A DNA stretch of 46,281 nucleotides, from positions 1 to 46,281 of the forward strand of contig JAJZMY010000007.1 in assembly GCA_021848125.1 (NCBI GenBank), read 5' to 3'. Positions 32,926-39,774 of the stretch are shown piece by piece (the stretch's first letter is position 1; each line of letters starts with the position of its first letter). The position numbers and the translations under genes were made by a program. The stretch comes from Microcaldota archaeon (GTDB lineage: Archaea > Micrarchaeota > Micrarchaeia > Micrarchaeales > Micrarchaeaceae). The notes beneath the pieces were generated by a model. It did not search any database. It was given only the letters and a program-made list of their open reading frames with translations, and was not told the origin of the DNA.

Positions 32926-33039
32926 GGCCTTAGCCGGGATTTCCCTATTAATAATGATTTACTATTTTTATTATTAACAAATCGGACCCGGATTAAAGGA
33001 TCCACAGTCCTCTGTGCTAGCCATTGCACTACTAAGGCC
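32926..33039 (-). tRNA. tRNA-His (anticodon GTG) with an intron in the T-loop
   Basis: On the minus strand GGCCTTAG pairs over 8 bp with CTAAGGCC, giving the encoded G-1 and C73 typical of tRNA-His. TA at positions 8-9, the D-stem GTGC/GCAC, and the anticodon stem GAGGA/TCCTT around CTGTGGA (anticodon GTG at 33003-33005) are regular. The T-stem CCGGG/CCCGG is interrupted by a 48-base loop (32939-32986) instead of 7. An intron of about 41 bases is therefore inferred there; it folds on TTAATAAT/ATTATTAA arms. No CCA is encoded. Confidence 0.9.
32939..32986 (-). other. Enlarged T-loop containing a tRNA-His intron
   Basis: The span between the two halves of the T-stem is 48 bases. A 7-base T-loop plus a 41-base intron accounts for it. 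The loop begins TCCGA, so C rather than T at position 55 is likely in the mature tRNA unless splicing joins differently. Exact splice points are not resolved; TCC may pair with GGA near the 3' junction to form a relaxed bulge-helix-bulge. Confidence 0.7.
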
Positions 33040-33100: not shown

Positions 33101-33421
33101 TTACTTGATTTGAATAAATGAAAAAACCTGAGGATTTGTTTTAGTAGAAATTTCCAAAGATTTGTTGATGATTTTTATATTAAGTGCGTCTTCTTTTGCA
33201 GATATGTTGATAGCATTTATCCAATTTGTATACTGGGTTTTATTTGTGCTATTTTGCGTCATATTGATGATATTTTCAAAAATTTCAACTGTCTCAATAT
33301 TCTTGTTTAAATTAAAATTCATTGCAATATTATTTGCCAATATTGCCATATGTATCATAAAAACAAGAATCAGCACTGCAAAAATCAGAGAACTTGAAAT
33401 TATTAAACCAAAGAAACTCAT
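33101..33421 (-). CDS. Pilin-like protein 7, short (pilus operon)
   Basis: About 106 residues. It has one N-terminal membrane helix (FFGLIISSSLIFAVLILVF) and a short extracellular part with several Asn-x-Ser/Thr sequons (NMTQNSTNKT). There is no clear class III signal, but size, topology and place at the end of the operon suggest a minor pilin-like component. ATG 33421 is chosen because GGTG lies seven to ten bases upstream; the frame also allows a GTG at 33430. Family not recognised. Confidence 0.6.
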   Translation of the reverse strand: MSFFGLIISSSLIFAVLILVFMIHMAILANNIAMNFNLNKNIETVEIFENIINMTQNSTNKTQYTNWINAINISAKEDALNIKIINKSLEISTKTNPQVFSFIQIK

Positions 33422-33465
33422 CAAATACACCTTTTCGGGAATCCGCCTCTTTTACAGTAGTTTAC

Positions 33466-33864
33466 TCATCCACCACAAGAGTAAATACAGCTTATTAAAT
33501 AAGATTTATTGTATTCTACTGGAAAACAGAATTCCAGTGCTTTGCAATTACTGTAAATAAAGGAATTGCTTGTAAATCCGTAAAAATGATTGTTGATATT
33601 CAATTTAATGTATTTTAATTTATAGTCAATTGCAAAATTTTCAATTATATTATTCGCATCTGGACAATGATTAACAAAACAGTCTAAAAATGAAGAATTA
33701 TGGTATAATATATTGGTGAAATCATAAACAAAGTTTAAACTAGCAAATTGATTTGAATTAAATTCTGACGAATACCCATAAGTAATATTTGTGATAAAAA
33801 CAGCAACAAAAACTAGCAGACTGCTGGCAATTAAAGTTTCTATGACTGCAAATTGAAGTTTCAT
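33466..33864 (-). CDS. Pilin-like protein 6, cysteine-rich (pilus operon)
   Basis: 132 residues. The N-terminus LQFAVIETLIASSLLVFVAVF resembles a type IV pilin hydrophobic start with a Glu at the +5-like position. The rest is extracellular and contains seven cysteines (LDCFVNHC, NCKALEFC, ISCIYSCGG at the very end), suggesting disulfide stabilisation; such cysteine density is unusual for cytosolic archaeal proteins. No family recognised. It lies 19 bases downstream of the 453-residue pilin-like gene. Confidence 0.65.
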   Translation of the reverse strand: MKLQFAVIETLIASSLLVFVAVFITNITYGYSSEFNSNQFASLNFVYDFTNILYHNSSFLDCFVNHCPDANNIIENFAIDYKLKYIKLNINNHFYGFTSNSFIYSNCKALEFCFPVEYNKSYLISCIYSCGG

Positions 33865-33883
33865 TTCATCATTCTATATCTGA

Positions 33884-35245
33884 TTATGACTGGTTCTTAA
33901 TATAAAGAATCGAACCCTGGGAATTAACAGTAATATTTGATATTGTCTTATTGAAAACATCAAAAGTAAAAATGTAATTTAATAATGAAAATGGCCTGCA
34001 TGAATAAAATTCAGTTTTATTTATATTTAATAAATTGCACTGATTATTTTGTGCTTCTGGACTTTCGATAAATTGAGAAGATGCATAATTAAAATTATTT
34101 ATAGATTGCCGAATTTGCGTTATTGCAGGTCCGCCGCCCCAATAAAGACCCCCATTATACTGGCTCATTGTTGCATTAAAACTTTCAAATGCCTGCTTAT
34201 ATGGCTGATAATTTCCAATATTGATCGCATAATTGTCAATTGAATTATTAAATATAAGATAATTTGAGTATGGCATTGGACCTTCACCAGAAATATTATT
34301 TACATAAATCTTCCCGATAATTTTATTATTTAAACTAATATCTTCACTGTTTTTAAAACCAGAAAGATTCGAGTATATTGGTAATTTGGATAATCCGGAA
34401 ATATTTAATGTTATATTATAGAAAAAATTATGGCTATTGTTTATTTTAGAAAAATAATTGTTTGTAGGATTTAAATAAATGCAATAAAGCGTGGTTGAAG
34501 ATCCCGGTCCTCCACAACTATATATTTGTGAATAATAATAAGGGGTTGGCGCACCACCTGCCCACTGGCATAGATTTCCACCATTTCTACCAACAATCCA
34601 ATTTTCGCATCTGCTTTTTACTGAAATGCTGTAAATATTTTGCTGTTTCTGCAATGGATAAATCAATGATTCATTATGCCTTATTATTGAAAAGGAATAT
34701 AGGGAAAATGCATTCGAATTGTTTAAATCATTGCTTAATTTAGAATATGTTTTCAATGTCAAATTCTTGTATACATAATCTTGATTAGAATTATTTTTAA
34801 TTAAAATTGAAACATTTATTATATTCAATCCAATATGTTTTGGTATTATTGAAAAAGAAGCAGCATCCACCCCCTGAGCTGAAAAATTATAAGATTCTGG
34901 AATAGAAATAACATTATCATTATTCAAAATTCTTATTGATATATTAGATTGATACGGCAATGAAAAAATAATTTGCAAATTATTGCTCTGATTAATATAT
35001 GTAATATTTGCTATTGATCCATATATATTTAGACTGCCATTAGTGCTCAAATTCAATAATTTTAAACTACTTGTATTTAATGCATTATCAATAAAGCTAG
35101 AATAAACAATATTCTGTGTTTTTGTAAAATGGTTATATAAGCCAAGACCAATAAGGCTAAAGCTTATAATAACTGATGTAATAATCATCATTTCAAAGCT
35201 TATCTGCAATTGGAATTGCTTTGCTTTAACTGTATTTTGTCTCAT
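33884..35245 (-). CDS. Large pilin-like surface protein with class III-type signal (pilus operon)
   Basis: 453 residues. A basic N-terminus is followed by QLQISFEMMIITSVIISFSL, matching the archaeal class III signal pattern QxSxExxx(L/I), then a large extracellular region rich in Asn, Ser and sequons. Cysteines recur in short clusters (SRCENWIVGRNGGNLCQWAG, then YSCGGPGSS, QNNQCNLL, FYSCRPF). This size is exceptional for a pilin and suggests an adhesin-tip or a scaffold component carried on a pilin stem. A GTGATC motif precedes ATG 35245, and the gene overlaps its upstream neighbour by 20 bases, so they are co-translated. Confidence 0.75.
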   Translation of the reverse strand: MRQNTVKAKQFQLQISFEMMIITSVIISFSLIGLGLYNHFTKTQNIVYSSFIDNALNTSSLKLLNLSTNGSLNIYGSIANITYINQSNNLQIIFSLPYQSNISIRILNNDNVISIPESYNFSAQGVDAASFSIIPKHIGLNIINVSILIKNNSNQDYVYKNLTLKTYSKLSNDLNNSNAFSLYSFSIIRHNESLIYPLQKQQNIYSISVKSRCENWIVGRNGGNLCQWAGGAPTPYYYSQIYSCGGPGSSTTLYCIYLNPTNNYFSKINNSHNFFYNITLNISGLSKLPIYSNLSGFKNSEDISLNNKIIGKIYVNNISGEGPMPYSNYLIFNNSIDNYAINIGNYQPYKQAFESFNATMSQYNGGLYWGGGPAITQIRQSINNFNYASSQFIESPEAQNNQCNLLNINKTEFYSCRPFSLLNYIFTFDVFNKTISNITVNSQGSILYIKNQS

Positions 35246-35630
35246 TTTTGATCACTAATAAAAATATTTTATTGCTAATATCAATAGTTCTTACAAGATA
35301 ATGCTGATAAATACTATTTGAATGATTAAGCGATGAATTAAATGATAAATTTGTCAATATTGGATTTACAGATATTGAATTAAAAGGAATAAGTTCTGCA
35401 TTATAAGGTTCAAATAATGTTTCAGCAAAGGTGTAAGGCAGATTTTGATTTTTTGTCAAAAAAAGAATGCCTTGGATTTTAGAATTTATTAATAAAGTAT
35501 CTGAAAACTGATTTAAAATACCAAATAAAATGTTAAAATCAGTTACTATAAAATATAGAAAAAATGTAAATACTGACGAAAAAATAAAAATGCTTAAAAT
35601 TAAATCAAAGCTCACTATAAAAAGTTTCAT
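35226..35630 (-). CDS. Pilin-like protein 4 (pilus operon)
   Basis: 134 residues. It has an N-terminal hydrophobic helix (FIVSFDLILSIFIFSSVFTF; the SFD resembles a degraded SxE class III signal) and an extracellular part with NSSLNHSNSIYQ sequons and a C-terminal beta segment (KIFLLVIKNE). Topology matches a minor pilin. It overlaps the next gene by 20 bases. No family recognised beyond the general pilin-like layout. Confidence 0.65.
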   Translation of the reverse strand: MKLFIVSFDLILSIFIFSSVFTFFLYFIVTDFNILFGILNQFSDTLLINSKIQGILFLTKNQNLPYTFAETLFEPYNAELIPFNSISVNPILTNLSFNSSLNHSNSIYQHYLVRTIDISNKIFLLVIKNETKYS

Positions 35631-35649
35631 ATTCTCATTTTTTGATTAT

Positions 35650-35856
35650 TTATTTTTGAATGATTATTTTAAATTGCGAATAAGGTGAAATACTATTATT
35701 AATTGAGTTATACTCGCTAGCATAATTTTTCAGCAAAATTGAATATTTCTGATAAAGCATTTTGTCAAGAATATAAATTAGTGAGATCAAGATAAATATA
35801 TAGACAAGAATTATTGAAAAGCTAATTATAGATTCAAATAGAATTTGGGCAAACAT
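35650..35856 (-). CDS. Very short pilin-like protein 3 (pilus operon)
   Basis: 68 residues: FAQILFESIISFSIILVYIF followed by a short polar tail. The QILFE segment is similar to the QISFE signal of the neighbouring pilins. Too short for a folded head domain; it may be a minor subunit or an assembly factor. It sits in line with 12-base and 19-base gaps to its neighbours, so it is real operon content rather than a chance frame. Confidence 0.6.
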   Translation of the reverse strand: MFAQILFESIISFSIILVYIFILISLIYILDKMLYQKYSILLKNYASEYNSINNSISPYSQFKIIIQK

Positions 35857-35868
35857 AAACTCATTTTT

Positions 35869-36243
35869 TTATTTTAATTCGATGCTTCCATTCGCTAGTA
35901 TGTTCAATTCAACTGATTTGATTGTCTGATTATTGCTGCATAATGTTTTATTTACAACAATGCCATTTGCCGCAATATTCAAATTACTTGCATTAAAAAT
36001 ATTATCCAATAATGTTTTGTTGCATATTGCATTCGGCACAAACGCCATAAAGCTAGATGATTGAAATCCTATATTTTCATTTATTAAAGTGGCAAACTGC
36101 TCAAGATATATCCTGTTTGATATATTTGACACTGATGAATGAAAATGAAGAAAGATTGCAATCCCTATCAGCATTGAGCTTAAGGATATTGCCAAATAAA
36201 TCATAAATTCAAAAGATATTTGCATCTGCGTCTTCATTTTCAT
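35869..36243 (-). CDS. Pilin-like protein 2 with class III-type signal (pilus operon)
   Basis: 124 residues. The N-terminus KMKTQMQISFEFMIYLAISL carries a QISFE class III-like signal identical in its core to that of the 453-residue protein. The head is small, with two cysteines (NAICNKTLL and KTLCSNNQT, likely a disulfide) and several sequons. A GGGGAAAT motif precedes the ATG. Likely a processed pilin; the peptidase is not encoded in the window. Confidence 0.75.
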   Translation of the reverse strand: MKMKTQMQISFEFMIYLAISLSSMLIGIAIFLHFHSSVSNISNRIYLEQFATLINENIGFQSSSFMAFVPNAICNKTLLDNIFNASNLNIAANGIVVNKTLCSNNQTIKSVELNILANGSIELK

Positions 36244-36293
36244 AATTTCCCCAAATTTTTGTTCCTTATTATTTTTATGTGTTATTGACTTAA

Positions 36294-36665
36294 TCAGACA
36301 TTACTAAGATTTTTAAGTTCATGCGATAATAATTGGGATGCGCTTTGGTTTGTTGTATTATTATAAAATGAATGCAAAACAGTTCCTTTTAATTGAGTCA
36401 TCATTGAAAGGGCAATAACAACTATTATAGTAACTGCAGACAGAATCATTATATATTCTATTGATCCTTGTAATTTTTTGGTTTTAGATAAACCGCACCA
36501 CAAATATATTAGATATATTTGATTAAAAAGCAAGTTTTTTGTTGCCAGATTAAACAAATATTCAGAAAATTTATGGTCTTTTTTATTTTCTGGTATTTTG
36601 CCTGTCTTTATATTTTCATTTTGCATTGTGTTTTGCATTTTTTGTTTGTTTTTTGTTTGTTTCAT
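36294..36665 (-). CDS. Putative major pilin with class III signal and an unusually long leader (pilus operon)
   Basis: 123 residues from ATG 36665, which has a GTGAG motif at the right distance. The signal KKLQGSIEYIMILSAVTIIV is the best archaeal QxSxE match in the locus, followed by a hydrophobic helix and a short 40-residue head (THE tail HSFYNNTTNQSASQLL). This composition suits a major pilin. The signal is preceded by about 65 residues of Lys/Asn-rich sequence plus a hydrophobic patch (FNQIYLIYLWCGL), far longer than normal leaders. A TTG at 36503 would give a conventional 13-residue leader. Which start is used is unresolved. Confidence 0.7.
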   Translation of the reverse strand: MKQTKNKQKMQNTMQNENIKTGKIPENKKDHKFSEYLFNLATKNLLFNQIYLIYLWCGLSKTKKLQGSIEYIMILSAVTIIVVIALSMMTQLKGTVLHSFYNNTTNQSASQLLSHELKNLSNV

Positions 36666-36676
36666 TTTCTCACTTT

Positions 36677-37477
36677 TCAAATTAAAATAGAATGCGATAT
36701 TATTATTGATGAAATTTTAAATAAAATAATCGAAAACGAACTGAAAAAGAAAATATTACTAATTTTTGATATTTTTTCCTCATTTTTATACCGAAAATTG
36801 ATGATATTTATTATAATAATATAAAAAACAAAAAGAATTGAGAAATTTTCAAAATTAAAGTTGATATTATTCATTTTACTTGTAAATTCTAGAATATTCA
36901 TGCTGATTCCGGCAAATATAGGAAAAAATATAACAGAACCTAATTGAATCATTGATATAGAGCTATGCAAATTTCCGGATATTTTTGACATATATTTTAT
37001 TTCTTTATCTAATTGCTTTTTAACTTCAATTAATGAAAAATAAATATCAATATTCTCATCAAGATTTTGGATAATTAAATTTATTATCTGCTTAAAATAA
37101 AAAGAACCAAACGATTCAAATAAATTTGAGAAAGAATTTTCAGCATTAAGCGATTTTTTATATAATTTAATTGAAAGTATTATTTGATTATAAAAATAGA
37201 ATTTTTTATTTAAACTGCTAGAAATCAGCTGCAATTTATTATGATTTAAATTATATCTATAAATTAAATTTGATAAAAATTCATAGTCATTTTCATTTAT
37301 TTTATTTTTATGTTCAATTCTTTTGATATTTAAATATAAAATTAGTGCAATGACAAATAGCAGAAAGCAAAAAAGTAATTTATTTAAAAAAATAAAAAAT
37401 ATACTAAATACAAATAAAATTAATTCTAAAATAATTAAATAGTTTTTAAATCTAAACAAAAAGTTATTCATATGCAT
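36677..37477 (-). CDS. TadC/GspF-like membrane protein (pilus operon)
   Basis: 266 residues. Two N-terminal helices (IILELILFVFSIFFIFL and LLFCFLLFVIALILYLNI), a cytosolic helical T2SF-like segment of about 110 residues, and three C-terminal helices (MIQLGSVIFFPIFAGISM, FSILFVFYIIIINIIN, FSIILFKISSIIISHSI). This is the layout of the platform protein on which the assembly ATPase acts; the pairing with a second such gene directly upstream is as in tadB-tadC. It overlaps the upstream gene by 14 bases. Sequence divergence is high. Confidence 0.72.
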   Translation of the reverse strand: MHMNNFLFRFKNYLIILELILFVFSIFFIFLNKLLFCFLLFVIALILYLNIKRIEHKNKINENDYEFLSNLIYRYNLNHNKLQLISSSLNKKFYFYNQIILSIKLYKKSLNAENSFSNLFESFGSFYFKQIINLIIQNLDENIDIYFSLIEVKKQLDKEIKYMSKISGNLHSSISMIQLGSVIFFPIFAGISMNILEFTSKMNNINFNFENFSILFVFYIIIINIINFRYKNEEKISKISNIFFFSSFSIILFKISSIIISHSILI

Positions 37478-38249
37478 CGCTAATATACATTTGGATTATC
37501 ATATAAATTGACGGCAAAATTCCAACCAATAAAAAACTAAACATTTCAAATTCAAAATAAGAATAAAAAATCATTGAATAAGCAATAAAGCCAAATAACA
37601 GAATACAAGGAATAACTGTTGTGAATACAATGCTTAATGTGAAAAATTTCTTAATAAAACTCAAATTTTTATTTTCATTCTCTATTTTTTTATCATATAA
37701 TTGTCTATATGCATGTTTTATTGCCATAATAATGTCTAAATTTGATTTATATTCATTTGAAATAGATTCCAGAATTTCTGATAAATCAAAATTAGTCAAG
37801 GTGTAAATCTGATTTTTGTCATTTGCAATTGCATTATTTATTGCTTCAATTGCATTAGAAATATCATGAAATTTCAATTCTTTTTTGATTTTTGCAAAAA
37901 TATAAAATGTCCAATTCTTTTTTGTTTTATTCCCGCTGATTTTTAATGCATTGTCAATACTTTTATTTAATGATTTTTTGTTGGATAAATTAATATAAAA
38001 AGAATATAAAAATAACAGCAGAAGATCTTTTTGACGTTTAATTGATTTTTTTTGCTGTAAATATAATTCAAATAGCGATACAATGATAAATATAGGAATA
38101 AGAATAATTAAGCTTAAAATTAAACTTATTCCCAGTATAATAAACACTAAAATAGTAAGGCCCAATAGTACTAAATTAATTGACAAATAGTTTTTATATA
38201 ATGAAAATTTTCGAATAAATAAAGCTAAAGTATCTGACAATTTAATCAC
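37464..38249 (-). CDS. TadB/GspF-like membrane protein (pilus operon)
   Basis: 261 residues with the T2SF arrangement: two N-terminal helices (INLVLLGLTILVFIILGISL and ILIPIFIIVSLFELYL), a cytosolic four-helix-like region (DLLLLFLYSFYINLSNKKS, then SLNKSIDNALKISG; later DLSEILESISNEYKS), and two C-terminal helices (FFTLSIVFTTVIPCILLFGF and FSFLLVGILPSIYMIIQM). GTG 38249 overlaps the ATPase stop by eight bases; a TTG at 38240 behind the GTGAT of the ATPase tail is an equally good start. Partner of the ATPase upstream and the TadC-like protein downstream. Confidence 0.75.
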   Translation of the reverse strand: MIKLSDTLALFIRKFSLYKNYLSINLVLLGLTILVFIILGISLILSLIILIPIFIIVSLFELYLQQKKSIKRQKDLLLLFLYSFYINLSNKKSLNKSIDNALKISGNKTKKNWTFYIFAKIKKELKFHDISNAIEAINNAIANDKNQIYTLTNFDLSEILESISNEYKSNLDIIMAIKHAYRQLYDKKIENENKNLSFIKKFFTLSIVFTTVIPCILLFGFIAYSMIFYSYFEFEMFSFLLVGILPSIYMIIQMYISDAYE

Positions 38250-39774
38250 TAATTTTATTATACTCTAAAATAAAATCTTCAATGCTTTTAGAAAGATTCT
38301 GTTCCTGATTGATCTGAGATAAGAACAATACTCTTTTTTTCAATTCTTCAATTGCTTCATTTACTGAAAGCATATTTACTTGAGAGTATTTTGCAACAAC
38401 TTTTGATTGCTTCAATTTTTTATAATCTAATTTATTGTCAACCACAACATCCAGAATCTTAAATACAAGATCATTATCAGTTTCAGTATTTTTGTCAATT
38501 TCTTTCGTATTAATTTCACCCCTCATTAACCATTTGTATTCGCTTATGCTATCAAGTTTTCTTGAATTTATATCTTGTTTCATAAATACTGAAAGATCCA
38601 GCATGCTCATTAATTGCGGTTGCACATTCATTGGTTTTGAACTTAGTCTGTTAATTAATACCTTGCCATTTTCACTGCTGTGCATTGTTGTCATAAAAGG
38701 TATTCCAAAATTAGTCCCTGAAAATATTTCATTTGTTTCAGCCCCCCGTATCTCTCCAATTATCAGCCTGTCTGGCCTTAAACGCAATGAATTTATGACT
38801 TGATCCCGTAAATTGATCTGATTTTTGTTTGTTGAGCCCTGTAATGAAATTGAATTGATAAAATTAGCATTAAATTTTAGTTCATTTATATCCTCTTCAA
38901 TACTTATTATTCTCTGATATCTTGGCATTAAACTATTAAGTGCAGTCAATAATGATGTTTTACCAGAAGCAGGAGCGCCAGAAATAACTATATTTGAATT
39001 TGCCTCAATTGCTAGCCATAAATATGCAATTACATCAATATTTGTTGTATTTGTTTGAATTAGTTTTCTAATATCAAAATTTTTATGCTGATTTAATCGA
39101 ATTGCTGCGATTGATCCGTTTGCAGCATATGGTTTGAGCTGGGCGTGAATTCTTGCGCCATTAAATATATCTGCATCAATTATTGGAAATTCCGAGCTTA
39201 ATTCCCGATCTAATGATTCAAGCAATTTATTAATTATAAATCTAAATTCCCTTTCACCATTAAATTTGAGATTTGTTTTGCAATATCTGTATTTCTGGTG
39301 GAAGATCATTATTTCTGAAGATGGTGAATTAATCAAAATTTCTTCAATGTTTTTAGAATCCTCTAAAATTATGCTTAATGGACCATAGCCAATAGTATCA
39401 TGTGCAATCAGATATGAAATCAAATCCTTATTTTCAGATAAATTTTCATTAGCTAAAAATCCAGTTATAATATTTCGAGCCCTGATTATATTTTCATTAC
39501 TGTATTTTTCAATTCCAGCTTCAATTAATGATTTAATTATTTTATATTTTATCCTAGCAATTATAGCAATGTCTTTTTTATTCAAGTTCATTGCATTTAA
39601 TGAATAAAAATTTTGATTATTCTTACTTCCGACTATGATATAATTTATTGTTTCATATGAATGATCAGGGTAATTGTTTGTTATGCTAAAAGTCAATTCA
39701 GAATTAATTTCTCGTTCTTGATTATATTTTTTGCTTTTATTTTTCAGTAATTGCGAAATTGCAGATAAGTTCAC
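38242..39774 (-). CDS. Type II/IV secretion (TadA/GspE-type) ATPase (pilus operon, first gene)
   Basis: 510-residue hexameric motor powering pilus assembly from the cytosol. Core motifs: IGYGPLSIILEDSKNIEEIL (N2 domain), ARIHAQLKPYA, Walker A ISGAPASGKTSLL (264-276), Asp box SIEEDINEL, Walker B LRPDRLIIGEIRGAE (332-346) and His box MTTMHSS (361-367). This is the archaeal TadA/ArlI-like group. The start is GTG 39774 with a GTGAT site, and a TATA box (39851-39860) lies upstream, so this is the promoter-proximal gene of the whole operon. Unlike archaellum clusters, no FlaH/ArlH or FlaG/F-type gene adjoins it. Confidence 0.9.
   Translation of the reverse strand: MNLSAISQLLKNKSKKYNQEREINSELTFSITNNYPDHSYETINYIIVGSKNNQNFYSLNAMNLNKKDIAIIARIKYKIIKSLIEAGIEKYSNENIIRARNIITGFLANENLSENKDLISYLIAHDTIGYGPLSIILEDSKNIEEILINSPSSEIMIFHQKYRYCKTNLKFNGEREFRFIINKLLESLDRELSSEFPIIDADIFNGARIHAQLKPYAANGSIAAIRLNQHKNFDIRKLIQTNTTNIDVIAYLWLAIEANSNIVISGAPASGKTSLLTALNSLMPRYQRIISIEEDINELKFNANFINSISLQGSTNKNQINLRDQVINSLRLRPDRLIIGEIRGAETNEIFSGTNFGIPFMTTMHSSENGKVLINRLSSKPMNVQPQLMSMLDLSVFMKQDINSRKLDSISEYKWLMRGEINTKEIDKNTETDNDLVFKILDVVVDNKLDYKKLKQSKVVAKYSQVNMLSVNEAIEELKKRVLFLSQINQEQNLSKSIEDFILEYNKISD

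Follow-up and report, generated by a model that had tools for sequence, protein, structure and literature searches.

We analyzed a 46,281-nucleotide stretch of DNA from a Microcaldota archaeon (contig JAJZMY010000007.1, our contig C10, taken whole as the window), which carries at positions 33101-39774 a set of genes that, on strong evidence, form a type IV filament operon. The genome that holds it spans 776 kb and is 94.7% complete, and the archaeon probably depends on a host. A preliminary description had placed ten genes on one strand with overlaps or short gaps, and all ten open reading frames (ORFs) were recovered on the minus strand with their frames intact. They follow the order A-B-C-p1-p2-p3-p4-p5-p6-p7, in which A encodes a T2SSE ATPase, B and C are platform genes of one domain each, and p1 to p7 encode pilin-type proteins. 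Overlaps join A to B (8 nucleotides), B to C (14 nucleotides), and p4 to p5 (20 nucleotides), while the widest intergenic gap, between p1 and p2, measures 50 nucleotides. The ORF coordinates held, except that the start of p7, first placed at 33430, probably lies at 33421, as orthologues align to MSFFG. The genes, in order of transcription, are as follows.

38242 to 39774, minus strand: A, secretion/assembly ATPase (T2SSE, TadA/FlaI/GspE2-like; PF00437), 510 amino acids.
37464 to 38249, minus strand: B, 261 amino acids, the first one-domain half of the inner-membrane platform; orthologues in 44 of 48 loci.
36677 to 37477, minus strand: C, 266 amino acids, the other one-domain half of the inner-membrane platform; orthologues in 45 of 48 loci.
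36294 to 36665, minus strand: p1, candidate major pilin (PF04021), a 65-residue leader followed by a 58-residue mature part that starts QGSIEY.
35869 to 36243, minus strand: p2, minor pilin with two Cys and the class III signal QISFE, 124 amino acids; Q...E in 40 of 40 orthologues.
35650 to 35856, minus strand: p3, small minor pilin with QILFE, 68 amino acids; found at 41 of 48 loci, with Q...E in 25 of the 41.
35226 to 35630, minus strand: p4, minor pilin-like protein, 134 amino acids, lacking Gln at +1 and keeping an acidic Asp/Glu before the hydrophobic helix; found at 39 of 48 loci.
33884 to 35245, minus strand: p5, large pilin with the class III signal QISFE, 453 amino acids, candidate tip protein (alignment of 34 orthologues and an AlphaFold2 model).
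33466 to 33864, minus strand: p6, minor pilin with six Cys and Q-F-A-V-I-E, 132 amino acids; Q....E in 33 of 38 orthologues.
33101 to 33421, minus strand: p7, pilin-like protein without a class III signal or Glu5, with invariant Met and Gly in an M-x-x-x-G start (orthologue alignment).

Scans for sigma-70 promoters and terminators at the operon returned nothing above shuffled sequences, the promoter model being bacterial and the organism archaeal. The single upstream TATA box offered in the preliminary description carries little weight as evidence in DNA so rich in A+T.

Protein A, proposed earlier as a GspE/TadA-type ATPase, scores 80.3 bits against PF00437 (T2SSE, cut-off 24.9) and retains an intact P-loop (GAPASGKT). 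Its profile retrieves Protein Data Bank (PDB) entry 2oap, an ATPase of type II secretion, as the best solved relative (1.8e-68), and the nearest named relative among the matches listed comes from a Ca. Micrarchaeota metagenome-assembled genome (L086, 42% identity). Adjacent to the ATPase gene, B and C each encode roughly one half of a platform protein that in archaea usually has two domains. The window's own B and C both fall below the cut-off for Pfam T2SSF; the suggested TadB-like and TadC-like pair is recognized through orthologues, with T2SSF matched by 7 of 30 for B (best E 5.4e-7) and 5 of 30 for C (best E 1.7e-5). Residues F184, P186, F188, and G190 of C (FFPIFAGI) are invariant.

The best NCBIfam match of the ATPase is the FlaI model (E 4e-51), as might be expected if the operon were an archaellum derivative, whether a rotating or a degenerate swimming filament. 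However, the score of 174 bits compares with a cut-off of 550, and the other two such ATPases of the genome score higher (249 and 214 bits). Among the ten proteins, no match was found to FlaH, another archaellum accessory protein, or an archaellin family, in line with the absence of archaellum accessory genes noted at the outset, and the platform is split in two. We regard a derived archaellum as highly improbable, and we reject archaellum identity as such on the FlaI score together with the missing partners.

Family searches of the genome (G000) located the two further T2SSE proteins on contigs C25 and C18. The first marks a second pilus locus in the same archaea, here called C25 type (C25:29122-29847 in G000; L196:7936-19501), which combines an ATPase and two platform proteins, as the operon does, but has coiled-coil partner genes and no p1-p7 set, and its ATPase falls in a different group. 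In Ca. Mancarchaeum acidiphilum Mia14, this locus is followed by large proteins on the opposite strand, one of them of 1220 amino acids. The C18 ATPase (C18:36126-36854, 431 amino acids) has no adjoining platform or pilin gene and stands apart as a separate clade with a long branch. In the ATPase tree, the operon ATPases form a separate clade (support 98/94) that joins only a homologue from another family, f15 (100/100). The C25-type ATPases fall in with Woesearchaeota and with sequences from further Micrarchaeota, and the TadA-like ATPases of bacteria make up a clade of their own, apart from the operon clade. The tree is unrooted, and the closest group to the operon type is not readable from it; its sequences do not include Methanococci or Thermococci. 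The operon ATPase appears to be a deep, separate lineage.

The preliminary description reported a Q-[G/I]-S-[I/F]-E class III signal in three pilins, and the motif is indeed found in p1 (QGSIE), p2 (QISFE), and p5 (QISFE). Ahead of the hydrophobic stretch, Q...E occurs in 39 of 41 p1, 40 of 40 p2, and 39 of 40 p5 orthologues, with a background of 18 among 383 other ORFs bearing an N-terminal hydrophobic stretch. The signals in these three pilins stand far above chance. Against PF04021 (Class_IIIsignal), p1 reaches 23.8 bits at a cut-off of 23.7; ATG at 36665 is its preferred start, with TTG at 36680 as the alternative, and it is the most conserved among the pilins compared. Others were said to carry degraded signals: that of p6 is shifted, being one residue longer (acid at +6 from Gln, or +5 if cut after Gln), p4 keeps the acid only, p7 has none, and p3 has the full QILFE.

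Structure prediction with AlphaFold2 covered two of the seven pilins, p5 and p7, and placed the expected N-terminal helix in both, including the signal-less p7. Of the seven, p7 was the likeliest to prove no pilin at all, yet its model (predicted local distance difference test score, pLDDT, 93.8) has a helix at 2-58, followed by another helix and a β-meander of three strands, a layout predicted to be pilin-like. The p5 model, built on a 34-row alignment (pLDDT 80.8), comprises a helix at 2-57, a β-sandwich at 73-169, and an α/β head at 184-451.

The cysteine-rich character first attributed to this 453-residue protein is borne out by six conserved Cys in the head (213, 226, 244, 255, 403, and 416). 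Across 34 p5 proteins, exactly six Cys are present in 30 and seven in four. The protein also contains 23 N-x-S/T sequons. Mean pairwise identity per column is 0.27 in the head versus 0.20 in the sandwich, with 0.21 and 0.22 for the platform proteins. A sequence search against PDB gave nothing significant, and Pfam yielded no consistent family match beyond the signal. Because the fold search returned only partial Ig/Fn3-like matches, we give no functional reading of the head.

A prepilin peptidase, originally reported as missing, is absent from the operon and present elsewhere in the genome. No EppA was found among the ten operon genes or the scanned neighbours, and a single A24 prepilin peptidase match lies outside the operon contig (C15:24846-25184 in G000; L197:3293-4195). 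This match is below the cut-off in the genome search (PF01478, E 2.9e-4) and has both Asp motifs, FDIFNKRNIP and GLGD. Prepilin peptidase matches were obtained in 65 of the 85 genomes of the family.

A protein search of the same 85 genomes gave a strong match to the operon ATPase, distinct from its two paralogues, in 48. With the ATPase present in 21 of 32 near-complete family genomes, the operon is accessory but common in the family. Re-annotation of 48 loci from two families recovered B in 44, C in 45, p1 in 41, p2 in 40, p3 in 41, p4 in 39, p5 in 40, p6 in 38, and p7 in 40; these counts gauge presence more than order, as the procedure was order-constrained (best path), and some loci run off the end of a contig. 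Independent evidence on order comes from unconstrained gene calls, in which A-B-C-p1-...-p7 was seen in regions from 42 ATPase-bearing genomes. The gene-order comparison called for at the outset thus showed all ten genes, identically arranged, in two families of the order. A profile of p5, searched against 301 genomes of the phylum, also picked up p5 in the second of these families (47 genomes); outside the order, matches were mostly limited to the signal region, with the exception of f15. One f15 genome (G173, L198:7152-14137) has a related operon with a 460-residue p5 homologue containing nine Cys and an extra 237-residue protein weakly similar to p5. By these searches the system is order-wide, with distant kin.

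Degenerate signals in p4, p6, and p7, an AT-rich genome, and loss in roughly one relative in three could be taken as signs of a decayed or non-functional remnant. Yet all ten frames are intact, the two families agree in gene order and motifs, p5 retains its six Cys, and the variant N-termini of p4, p6, and p7 are themselves conserved among orthologues. That the operon is a remnant seems scarcely credible.

The ATPase, platform, and class III prepilins of the operon, with the genomic prepilin peptidase, make up the set that defines the type IV filament superfamily. Two one-domain platform genes and a short major pilin with +1Q/+5E are also hallmarks of the Epd-like pili (clade 1 of archaeal type IV pili), among them the Epd pilus of Methanococcus maripaludis (PMC4858521, PMC3875500, PMC6668835). 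Splitting of the platform into two one-domain genes is known from both Epd and Tad systems (PMC6668835). The mature p1 of 58 residues compares with 54-63 in M. maripaludis (PMC3875500), and Epd likewise combines +1Q/+5E class III signals with several minor pilins. The operon differs in that its locus lacks EppA, a FleN/MinD or FlaH-like ATPase, and the DUF2341 adhesin, its ATPase gene comes first, and its large pilin p5 belongs to no consistent Pfam family outside the signal. It resembles an Epd/Tad-type pilus in its working; full membership of the Epd group is not claimed, as the locus lacks two Epd features and the ATPase tree covers no Epd references.

The bacterial Tad/Flp pilus shares a TadA-like ATPase, a TadB/TadC pair, and a very short major pilin, but no match to TadZ, RcpC, or a secretin was found among the ten proteins, and the TadA-like ATPases are a separate clade. 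Another split platform, CdiPFa/CdiPFb, is described for the CdiP pilus of Cuniculiplasma divulgatum, an acidophilic archaeon of a genus that hosts Micrarchaeota; the accessible part of that report describes one minor pilin and mentions no p5-like protein (PMC12448462).

The system is not undescribed, as had been supposed. For Mia14, which grows in co-culture with its host, Golyshina et al. (2017, PMC5498576) listed two systems for type IV pili, MIA14_0170-0177 and MIA14_0252-0260, along with a single FlaK-like peptidase, MIA14_0570; they also noted that Mia14 lacks an archaellum and that key components are common to many Ca. Micrarchaea. In the Mia14 genome (G070), we located the operon at 229.8-236.0 kb, the C25-type locus at 148 kb, and the peptidase match at 530 kb. 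Matching tags to coordinates by proportion, the operon almost certainly corresponds to MIA14_0252-0260 and the C25-type locus probably to MIA14_0170-0177, while the peptidase match fits MIA14_0570. The orthologous locus was thus listed as a type IV pilus but never analyzed, the main text of that paper giving no component analysis. We found no paper dissecting the operon in the literature searched, whose scope excluded supplementary files.

Taken together, we consider it probable that the locus is a complete micrarchaeal type IV filament assembly operon, Epd/Tad-like, with contact to a host or surface as its likeliest use. Prepilins would enter the membrane and be cut just before the +1 Gln by the distant A24 peptidase. 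The mature 58-residue p1 would then serve as the helical major subunit, its register kept by Glu5, and ATPase A, by analogy with its family, would drive platform B and C to extract and stack subunits. An initiating or tip complex could consist of p2, p3, p4, p6, and p7, in which p7, having no Glu5, may come first, as with GspK-like pilins. The sandwich and the Cys-rich, sequon-rich head of p5 would most likely sit at the tip and make contact, either with an archaeal host or with surfaces; DNA uptake would be the main alternative use.

A rival arrangement is a short pseudopilus for carrying proteins or DNA over the envelope, with p5 as receptor or exit head and not an adhesin. Several minor pilins plus a large head pilin do recall the GspH-K set and competence pili, and small-genome symbionts need imported nucleotides. 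Set against this, nothing recognizable as a nuclease, a DNA channel, or a gene for an exported substrate turned up within or beside the operon, and p1, short and highly conserved, is a pilin of the filament type. We judge a pseudopilus unlikely.

A host-attachment role for the filament can reasonably be inferred. In pairs of ARMAN/Micrarchaeota with Thermoplasmatales, pili-like or filamentous contacts have been seen. Several points weigh against the overall reading of the operon given above. The imaged contacts were partly ascribed to pili or tubes of the host and not of the small cell, and for Ca. Micrarchaeum harzensis a host-made filament was suggested; the genes of the operon have not been linked to any filament. 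The operon ATPase is lacking from 11 of the 32 near-complete family genomes, so the system is not essential for the lifestyle. No FleN/MinD or FlaH-like secondary ATPase is present among the ten proteins, leaving the locus without an accessory ATPase, and a fold search with the p7 model gave no significant PDB match. Finally, the p5 head is conserved across the order, unlike a typical host-specific adhesin, which would argue at least as much for a core tip or scaffold part. It is possible, if somewhat doubtful, that this pilus subtype is largely limited to one micrarchaeal order and that the conserved six-Cys p5 head is the contact protein binding archaeal hosts.

Two neighbouring features were also recorded. 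In most relatives, a divergent gene 70-190 bp upstream of the ATPase encodes a very conserved protein of 106-131 amino acids with no Pfam match (L060:6340-6660 and 33 other loci); the gene is nearly universal in the family, and in the genus of the window it is unlinked, lying in G000 on another contig (C14:462-752). We considered this protein, DNA-binding-like by eye, as a dedicated regulator and rejected it, as it occurs in 68 of 85 genomes, many without the operon, and is unlinked here. It is not counted as a system component. At 32926-33039 on the minus strand, a tRNA-like element with a GTG (His) anticodon has a T arm apparently split by an AT-rich insert. ARAGORN made no call, and the Rfam tRNA score is 20.4 bits versus a threshold of 29; the element is possibly an intron-bearing tRNA-His.

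To the open question of how DPANN archaea hold on to their hosts, the operon brings a defined ten-gene set and a named candidate tip protein. The known range of archaeal pili gains a deep ATPase lineage, and also a variant whose locus includes neither a peptidase nor an accessory ATPase. As Mia14 carries the operon and grows in co-culture, an experimental test of a p1 filament and a p5 tip is possible.
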